Shown piece after piece: positions 50,631 to 52,253 of a DNA stretch of 64,000 nucleotides. Within the stretch, counting starts at the first letter, position 1, and each line of letters starts with the position of its first letter. Origin of the DNA: Chryseobacterium potabilaquae (lineage in GTDB: Bacteria; Bacteroidota; Bacteroidia; Flavobacteriales; Weeksellaceae); assembly GCF_902728265.1 (NCBI RefSeq), contig NZ_CACVBR010000003.1:1-64000 (forward strand), given 5' to 3'. The position numbers were made by a program, and so were the translations under genes. The notes below the pieces were generated by a model. That model saw nothing but the letters and a program-made list of their open reading frames with translations. It was not told the origin of the DNA and ran no database searches.

Positions 50631-52253
50631 ATGTTAACAGTATCTAACTTATCTTTACAATTCGGGAAAAGAATTCTTTTTGATGAGGTAAATATTATGT
50701 TTACCAAAGGAAATTGCTACGGGATCATCGGAGCAAATGGAGCAGGAAAGTCTACGTTCCTTAAAATATTAACTGGGAAGCAGGATCCCACAACGGGCCA
50801 TGTAACACTGGAACCTGGAAAAAGAATGTCTGTTCTTGAGCAGGATCACTTTGCTTATGATCAATATACTGTTCTTGAAACTGTACTAAGAGGCAATAAA
50901 AAATTATTCGAAATAAAAGAGGAGATGGACGCACTTTATGCGAAAGAAGACTTCTCTGATGAAGATGGAATTAAAGCAGGGGAATTAGGTGTAATATATG
51001 ATGAGATGGGAGGATGGACTGCAGAATCGGATGCACAAACCATGCTTTCGAATGTGGGAATTAAAGATGATATGCATTGGCAGATGATGGGGGAACTTGA
51101 AAATAAAGACAAAGTAAAAGTTCTTCTTGCTCAGGCTCTTTTTGGAAATCCAGACGTATTAATCTTGGATGAGCCTACCAACGACCTTGATATAGATACT
51201 ATCTCATGGTTGGAAGATTTCCTTGCAGATTATGAAAATACAGTAATTGTAGTATCTCACGACCGTCACTTCTTGGATACCGTATGTACTCATATTGGTG
51301 ATTTGGATTATGCTAAACTTAATCTTTATACAGGGAACTACTCTTTTTGGTATCAAGCATCCCAACTAGCTACAAGACAAAGAGCTCAAGCTAATAAAAA
51401 AGCTGAAGAAAAGAAAAAAGAACTTCAGGATTTTATCGCGAGATTTAGCTCAAATGTTGCAAAAGCTAAGCAGGCAACTGCAAGAAAGAAAATGATCGAT
51501 AAATTGAATATCGACGATATTAAGCCATCTTCAAGAAGATATCCAGCGATTATTTTTGAAATGGAAAGGGAGGCAGGAGATCAAATTTTGGATGTAAAAG
51601 GTCTTGAAAAAACAAAAGATGGAGAACTTCTTTTCTCTAATATTGATTTAAACCTTAAGAAGGGAGATAAAGTCGCTGTTATTTCAAAAAGCTCATTAGC
51701 CATTACTGAATTTTTTGAAATTCTTGCAGGAAATTCAACTGCAGATAAAGGAACTGTAGCTTGGGGGGTAACAACCAATCAATCTCATATGCCTTTAGAC
51801 AATACCAATTTTTTCCAGGAGGATATAAGTTTAGTGGATTGGTTAAGACAATTTACTAAAAATGATGAGGAACGTCACGAAGAGTTTATAAGAGGATTTT
51901 TAGGAAGAATGCTCTTTTCGGGTGACGAAGCACTCAAGTCTTGTAAAGTACTTTCAGGAGGTGAAAAAATGAGATGTATGTTTAGCAGAATGATGCTTCA
52001 AAAAGCCAATATCCTTTTATTAGATGAGCCGACGAACCACTTAGATCTTGAGAGTATTACCACATTGAATAACTCACTTTCTAATTTTAAAGGAAACATT
52101 TTATTGGCATCTCATGACCACGAAATGCTTCAAACAGTATGTAACAGAATCATCGAACTTACTCCTAAAGGTATTATCGATAGAGAAATGACATATGATG
52201 AATATCTCGCAGAGAAAAAAGTAAAAGAATTAAGAGAAAAAATGTATTCTTAA
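50631..52253 (+). CDS. ABC-F family ATPase (YbiT-like) with one degenerate ATP site
   Basis: ABC-F proteins bind ribosomes and use two ATP-binding domains on one chain. The 540-residue protein has intact Walker A in domain 1 ([15 protein letters not shown], about residue 33), both Walker B motifs ([12 protein letters not shown] and [12 protein letters not shown]), both switch His residues, and an intact signature in domain 2 ([10 protein letters not shown]). In contrast the signature of domain 1 reads [15 protein letters not shown] instead of LSGG, and the Walker A of domain 2 reads [14 protein letters not shown], with no GxxGxGK(T/S). These two motifs meet in the same composite site. The linker region (about 245-300) is helical and basic, as usual. 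Confidence 0.92.

Follow-up and report, generated by a model that had tools for sequence, protein, structure and literature searches.

The ABC-F ATPase encoded at positions 50,631 to 52,253 of the window, the 64,000-nucleotide stretch of Chryseobacterium potabilaquae DNA analyzed here, has lost the Walker A motif of domain 2, the signature of domain 1 and the Q-loop glutamine of domain 2, all from one of its two composite ATP sites, and keeps the other site intact. We propose that it is a one-site ABC-F of the YbiT/YkpA clade: the protein and its nearest group of relatives (clade B below) would close on a single ATP at site 1, would be released by hydrolysis at Glu181, and would have abandoned site 2 step by step. 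We put the probability of this reading at about three in four. As far as the sequences tell, the asymmetry itself is real, old and widespread.

Gene and family placement

The gene and the region of its linker are located as follows.

50631..52253, forward strand: ABC-F ATPase gene of the YbiT/YkpA clade, 540 aa (open reading frame; two PF00005 stretches plus PF12848; nearest solved relative 9njf_Y)
51366..51566, forward strand: linker region (PF12848 / PtIM; match at residues 224-306, tip residues 265-290 of low variability)

PF00005 matches two stretches of one chain (130.6 bits), giving tandem ABC nucleotide-binding domains (NBDs) in a chain predicted to be soluble, and the ABC_tran_Xtn linker (PtIM, PF12848) is present at residues 224-306 with 64.5 bits against a cut-off of 25.9. 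The tip of the linker, residues 265-290, is less variable than either NBD in both the Bacillota and the Bacteroidota sets of clade B. In the PDB the best match of the 540-residue protein is E. coli YbiT, 9njf_Y (523 bits, E 5.9e-156), and the runner-up ABC-F is YheS with 241 bits. The top NCBIfam family is NF011646 (PRK15064, the E. coli-type YbiT equivalog) at 636.3 bits; as this lies below the curated cut-off of 762, the window protein is a sister type and not an E. coli-type YbiT equivalog. YbiTs of both types group apart from other ABC-Fs with an SH-aLRT of 99 on a 92-row tree that leaves the motif columns out.

ABC-Fs are described as carrying consensus Walker A and B motifs in both ABC domains (in the part of PMC11282234 that describes them), and the window protein departs from that description in having no Walker A in domain 2. 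The description is, in our view, too narrow here, because the protein is an ABC-F by linker, fold and tree. It is most likely a housekeeping ABC-F translation factor that, to judge from its subfamily, would bind the ribosomal E site when ATP-bound. The whole gene is under strong purifying selection: of six comparisons with near relatives, four allowed an estimate and gave dN/dS of 0.014-0.025, and two had saturated dS. Three more ABC-F-like proteins are encoded in the same genome, and site 2 is canonical in all three; in one of them, L040, the first glycine of the domain-1 Walker A deviates.

The gene for SmpB (SsrA-binding protein; 50051-50509, reverse strand) is divergent from the ABC-F gene and lies 121 bp from its start. 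With flanks of up to 1.5 kb, smpB was nearby at all 7 loci of the window's family (window included), at 0 of 23 loci in the next family of the order and at 0 of 80 genome-contig loci. As the linkage is limited to the window's family among the loci checked, it says little about function. Further along lie a gene for an OmpA-family outer membrane protein (48480-49973, reverse strand) that carries Asp-rich repeats, DTDGDGVxDKDDxCP, and a tail rich in Lys and Ala, and a YebC/PmpR-family gene (47645-48385, reverse strand), which is three genes from the ABC-F gene, with the OmpA-family gene and smpB between. The YebC/PmpR family has lately been tied to the relief of ribosome stalling.

Motifs of the two composite sites

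Site 1 is made up of the domain-1 Walker A and B, Q-loop and switch together with the domain-2 signature, and site 2 of the domain-2 counterparts together with the domain-1 signature. The motifs of the window protein, all on the forward strand, are listed below with their state among the relatives described in the next section.

50730..50756, forward strand: Walker A of domain 1, GANGAGKST (site 1), intact; intact in 284/284 clade B rows covering it
51096..51110, forward strand: former signature of domain 1, LENKD for LSGGE (site 2), lost; SGG in 4/285 clade B rows and 0/14 E. coli-type YbiTs
51159..51191, forward strand: Walker B and D-loop of domain 1 with catalytic Glu181 (site 1), intact; D180 and E181 in 285/285 clade B rows
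51258..51260, forward strand: switch His210 (site 1), intact; 285/285 clade B rows
51684..51710, forward strand: former Walker A of domain 2, SKSSLAITE for GxxGxGKST (site 2), lost; intact in 0/285 clade B rows, 14/14 E. coli-type YbiTs and 28/28 other ABC-Fs
51795..51797, forward strand: Q-loop position of domain 2, Leu389 for Gln (site 2), lost; Gln in 6/285 clade B rows, 14/14 E. coli-type YbiTs and 28/28 other ABC-Fs
51951..51965, forward strand: signature of domain 2, LSGGE (site 1), intact; SGG[EQ] in 284/285 rows, the exception being L328, with an ambiguous letter after SGG
52014..52046, forward strand: Walker B and D-loop of domain 2, Glu466 (site 2) present, D-loop HLD; E466 in 221/285 rows, H470-L471-D472 in 285/285
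52113..52115, forward strand: switch His495 (site 2), present in the window; kept in 237/285 clade B rows

An earlier note, made from this DNA sequence alone, had read the domain-1 LSGG and the domain-2 Walker A as replaced and the remaining Walker, switch and signature motifs as intact. Alignment to 9njf_Y agrees on each point. The replaced Walker A, SKSSLAITE, falls on VLGTNGVGKSTLLK of E. coli YbiT and has lost the P-loop glycine at all three positions, and the former domain-1 signature, LENK, falls on MSEVAPGWKLR, the VAPG region of YbiT. Besides the intact domain-1 Walker A, domain 1 has the Walker B DEPTN and the switch SHDRH, and domain 2 has LSGGEK, DEPTN and SHDHE. The note's placing of both losses on one composite site, with the other canonical, holds for the window protein and across the clade B alignment, and to it we add Leu389, a third loss at site 2 that the note did not contain.

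A normal LSGG or GxxGxGKT elsewhere in these domains was named in the note as a finding that would speak against it. Over the whole 540-residue chain, the pattern G....GK[ST] occurs once only (residue 34, GANGAGKS) and SGG once only (residue 442), with no hidden second copy of either. Misalignment as the cause was ruled out, as neither motif is elsewhere in the chain and the alignment to YbiT is nearly free of gaps. A quirk of this genome or a sequencing error was likewise ruled out, because the asymmetry recurs in six related genomes, five from the window's genus and one from its family.

Distribution among relatives

The final alignment holds 327 rows including the window: 28 other ABC-Fs, 14 E. 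coli-type YbiTs (clade A) and 285 rows of clade B, which represent 284 genes as L043 and L226 are the same gene. Clade labels were first set from the motif table and provenance and were afterwards supported by the tree. The 28 other ABC-Fs comprise three from the window's genome, 20 unnamed Bacteroidota proteins chosen by hand from the phylum draw, and five plasmid-borne ones. Bacteroidota were drawn twice. The first draw took 296 genomes evenly over the phylum; 279 had some ABC-F match at E 1e-60, of which 86 had a YbiT-type match (81 clade B and 5 clade A, all included) and those beyond the 86 matched other ABC-Fs only. In the second, of 198 genomes of the window's class, 137 had a match at E 1e-110 and 61 had none, and 131 of the 137 were aligned after six truncated sequences were left out (G372, G358, G420, G440, G441 and G450). 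L042 was dropped, being the second half of L041.

Clade B comprises 195 Bacteroidota rows, 83 Bacillota, 3 Fusobacteriota, 2 Mycoplasmatota, 1 Bdellovibrionota and 1 Omnitrophota, which is six phyla as labelled, two of them resting on one metagenome contig each. Most of the 83 Bacillota rows come from the best 80 matches listed to L111, so this set is biased to the kin of L111. The earlier note had proposed scoring the motifs in homologs across Bacteroidota, and doing so found the loss of Walker A2 (the domain-2 Walker A) to be general in clade B, with site 1 intact. Walker A2 is intact in 28/28 other ABC-Fs and 14/14 clade A proteins, and in 0/285 of clade B, a contrast too sharp for chance; the Q-loop glutamine of domain 2 follows the same pattern (28/28, 14/14 and 6/285). 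The domain-1 signature (SGG) is found in all 28 other ABC-Fs, in none of the 14 clade A proteins and in 4/285 clade B rows. Glu466 and His495 are each present throughout the other ABC-Fs (28/28) and clade A (14/14); within clade B, Glu466 is kept in 221/285 rows and replaced in 64, and His495 is kept in 237/285. At site 1, the Q-loop, the Walker B Asp-Glu and His210 are each kept in 285/285 clade B rows and Walker A1 in all 284 that cover it, the exceptions at this site being one truncated and one ambiguous sequence (L328). Individual members of clade B have lost 2 to 5 of the 5 scored site-2 elements.

The remains of site 2 differ among members. Glu466 is naturally replaced by Gln in 33/285 rows from Bacillota, Mycoplasmatota and Bacteroidota (e.g. 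L111, L113 and L107), and the former domain-2 P-loop is one residue shorter in 6/285 (L118, L165, L177, L181, L277 and L285). The P-loop lysine is kept in 58/285 rows, with 48 of 83 in Bacillota, mostly from the best 80 matches listed to L111. Four former site-2 positions are constrained in clade B: D465 (280/285), D187 (284/285), Ser/Thr359 (273/285) and Ala357 (249/285). A loop of the type S-[KR]-x-x-x-A-x-T is common to many Bacteroidota.

Evolutionary history

The tree was built from 92 of the then 206 rows, before the last rows joined the alignment, with the motif columns removed and the truncated L087 left off, by a quick search with SH-aLRT support only. Clade B is monophyletic (SH-aLRT 99), and the E. 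coli-type YbiTs fall into two supported groups; clade A may be paraphyletic. Loss of Walker A2 maps as one change, at the stem of clade B, which indicates that the asymmetry is old and has been maintained. On the same tree, Glu466 changes 11 times, His495 8 times, the P-loop lysine 11 times and the SGG of the signature 5 times. Together, as reconstructed on this tree, there is one founding loss of Walker A2, and there are repeated separate losses at site 2.

Bacteroidota members of clade B, the window protein among them, are nested within Bacillota lineages, while five Bacteroidota genomes outside the window's class (L088-L092) carry an E. coli-like clade A YbiT with Walker A2 intact. This arrangement suggests that clade B reached the window's class by an old transfer between phyla.

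The earlier note had interpreted the two motif losses as coordinated specialization rather than decay. What stood of this is that the asymmetry persists throughout a large clade and under strong purifying selection. What did not stand is that these two motifs, and no others, went in a coordinated way. The two vary independently, which the note had named as a refuting finding, although in the YbiTs sampled the losses all hit one site: 14/14 E. coli-type YbiTs have lost the domain-1 signature and keep Walker A2, and the Bacillota proteins L111, L114, L119 and L121 keep SGG without Walker A2. Nor did loss end with two motifs, as site 2 keeps shedding the Q-loop glutamine, Glu466 and His495, and several former motif columns are highly variable. 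No association was detected between the signature Gly158 and Glu466, His495 or Lys358, a comparison with little power as only 9 independent pairs were usable.

Release and constraint at site 2

Fourteen positions were chosen at each site. Those of site 1 have entropies of 0 to 0.16 bits, and those of site 2 are far more variable (Mann-Whitney p 6e-6 in the 81 Bacteroidota; p 4e-6 in the 83 Bacillota, mostly from the best 80 matches listed to L111). The variability at site 2 is uneven. Among the 195 Bacteroidota rows, positions 157, 159, 160, 355, 358 and 389 stand at the 94th, 85th, 87th, 89th, 86th and 92nd percentiles of variability, respectively, and the remaining eight of the 14 at percentiles 0 to 58. 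The contrast can be followed between neighboring residues of domain 2, where Glu466 of site 2 is replaced in 64/285 rows and the D-loop H470-L471-D472, four to six residues on, is kept in 285/285; we take this D-loop to face the opposite site, site 1. The second NBD evolves faster than the first in clade B, however it does so in clade A as well, where Walker A2 is kept, so this difference in rate is no mark of site loss. On this comparison of sequences, site 2 is a place of release and stepwise decay around a preserved asymmetry, and site 1 is strictly constrained. We attribute the constraint on D465, D187, Ala357 and Ser/Thr359 to their part in the fold or in site 1. It counts against a one-site reading all the same, as do Glu466 and His495, which the window protein has kept. 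Weak nucleotide binding at site 2 may remain, most so in the Bacillota.

A model for closure on one ATP

ABC-Fs are reported to close on two ATP, to bind the E site and to depend on hydrolysis for their release, and changing Glu to Gln at both sites together serves as a trap for ABC-Fs on ribosomes (both as described in parts of PMC11282234). As site 2 of the window protein is without the P-loop, the Q-loop glutamine and the facing signature, the simplest reading is that closure and release are run by one ATP at site 1. We hypothesize that the tandem NBDs close around this single ATP, that the protein, once closed, occupies the ribosomal E site with its conserved linker reaching the P-site tRNA, and that Glu181 alone would hydrolyze the nucleotide, leading to release from the ribosome. 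Site 2 would then be a protein interface, nucleotide-free or at most weakly binding, that serves as a hinge. The natural Glu466-to-Gln change in 33/285 rows, one half of that trap, argues that hydrolysis at site 2 is not needed for release. The site-2 motifs would have been free to go because site 2 no longer set the cycle, and they would have been shed singly, the order differing from branch to branch.

An AlphaFold2 model of the window protein without ligand (mean pLDDT 87.5, pTM 0.78) matches ATP-bound ABCF1 (Z 31.2, rmsd 3.8, 442 aligned) and ribosome-bound YbiT (Z 30.1, rmsd 6.0, 493 aligned), and its fold agrees with ABCF1 and ribosome-bound ABC-Fs over residues 1-537. In the predicted secondary structure, the loop before the P-loop helix spans 35-37 in domain 1 and 353-354 in domain 2, the domain-2 helix starting one residue early. 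The fold matches and the early helix would fit closure on one ATP and lend it weak support.

The alternative that survives best, although we consider it unlikely, is a degenerate ATP-binding site of the exporter kind, in which site 2 holds a non-hydrolyzed ATP that glues the domains together while site 1 turns over. D465, Ser/Thr359 and the D-loop D187 are nearly invariant and 58/285 rows keep the P-loop lysine, as might be expected of such a site, and the degenerate sites of exporters bind ATP and stay constrained (according to passages of a review, PMC7756269). The same review gives an intact Walker A as the holder of the alpha and beta phosphates, however, and this is missing in 285/285 rows. 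Site 2 of clade B also differs from a nucleotide holder in the window's P-loop, which is without all three glycines, in a loop that is one residue short in 6/285, in the Q-loop glutamine, gone in 279/285, and in the drift of positions 157, 358 and 389 (percentiles 94, 86 and 92 among the 195 Bacteroidota rows).

We give much less credence to the recruitment of site 2, through its replaced loops, for the binding of something other than ATP, be it a different nucleotide, a small ligand or a protein partner. There is order in the replaced P-loop, as seen in Ala357 (249/285), Ser/Thr359 (273/285) and the S-[KR]-x-x-x-A-x-T loop of many Bacteroidota, but these conserved loop positions would fit simple helix capping and packing, and positions 157, 159, 355 and 358 stand at percentiles 85-94 among the 195 Bacteroidota rows. 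Least credible by far is that the whole protein is losing ATPase function or is a pseudogene-like relic: the loss of 2 to 5 of the 5 scored site-2 elements per member speaks for it and is contradicted by the near-invariant site 1, dN/dS of 0.014-0.025 in the four estimable comparisons, the conserved PtIM tip and the presence of clade B in six phyla as labelled.

Comparison with known systems

E. coli YbiT (9njf, 9nlf and others) belongs to the same subfamily as the window protein, with about 44% end-to-end identity, the same linker, a canonical site 1 and a domain 1 that likewise has no LSGG (VAPG instead). Unlike the window protein, it keeps Walker A2, the domain-2 Q-loop glutamine and the Glu and His of site 2. 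Bacillus YkpA, the Bacillota YbiT, compared through the B. velezensis protein L095, is a member of clade B with about 57% identity that has also lost Walker A2 (GRNELAVTT), although its domain-1 signature is less eroded (LGGSEK). Deletion of ykpA in B. subtilis is reported to cause mild stalling on charged stretches (in the portion of PMC11381351 that deals with it). EttA, Uup, YheS, MsrD and VgaA share the tandem NBDs and PtIM linker with the window protein. Site 2 is complete in the 28 other ABC-Fs scored here, which are Bacteroidota and plasmid-borne proteins and do not include those five.

The exporters CFTR, TAP, MRP1 and Pdr5 resemble clade B in that one composite site is consensus and the other degenerate, the changes being found in both NBDs (according to the passages of PMC7756269 on these proteins). 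They are membrane transporters, and by the same passages their degenerate site still binds ATP and has not diverged further; in clade B an intact P-loop is absent in 285/285 rows and parts of site 2 drift. In sequence, clade B appears to go beyond the degenerate-site exporters on both counts, loss of the ATP loop and divergence.

Functional asymmetry of the two sites has been reported for MsrD and Vga(A), and of the single Glu-to-Gln changes made at either site of MsrD, E434Q had the greater toxicity (in the part of PMC10314930 that compares the sites). This toxicity indicates that the second site is important in one further ABC-F at least, and it counts against a one-site model. In the open-licence literature, which leaves most subscription journals outside, we found no report of a major housekeeping ABC-F subfamily that has lost an entire site. 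The survey that defined the subfamilies (PMC6723617) has "Walker" once, "signature" once and "degenerate" never in its main text. The article that belongs to the 2025 YbiT structures (9njf and others) may take up the domain-1 signature.

Significance

The role of each ATP in ABC-Fs is a live question, with asymmetry known for MsrD and Vga(A) (as set out in part of PMC10314930). A widespread subfamily that has apparently managed with one site fewer from the stem of its clade onwards would be a partial answer given by evolution, and a simple experimental system; Bacillus YkpA already has a deletion phenotype (described in part of PMC11381351). EQ2 double mutants of YkpA-like proteins may in effect be single mutants. 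We lean somewhat towards clade B being a class of translation ABC-Fs that would run the full ribosome cycle on one ATP, with site 2 as a nucleotide-free hinge. If this is true, the single-ATP proteins of clade B go against the rule of two-ATP closure in ABC-Fs, and are natural separation-of-function mutants for it.
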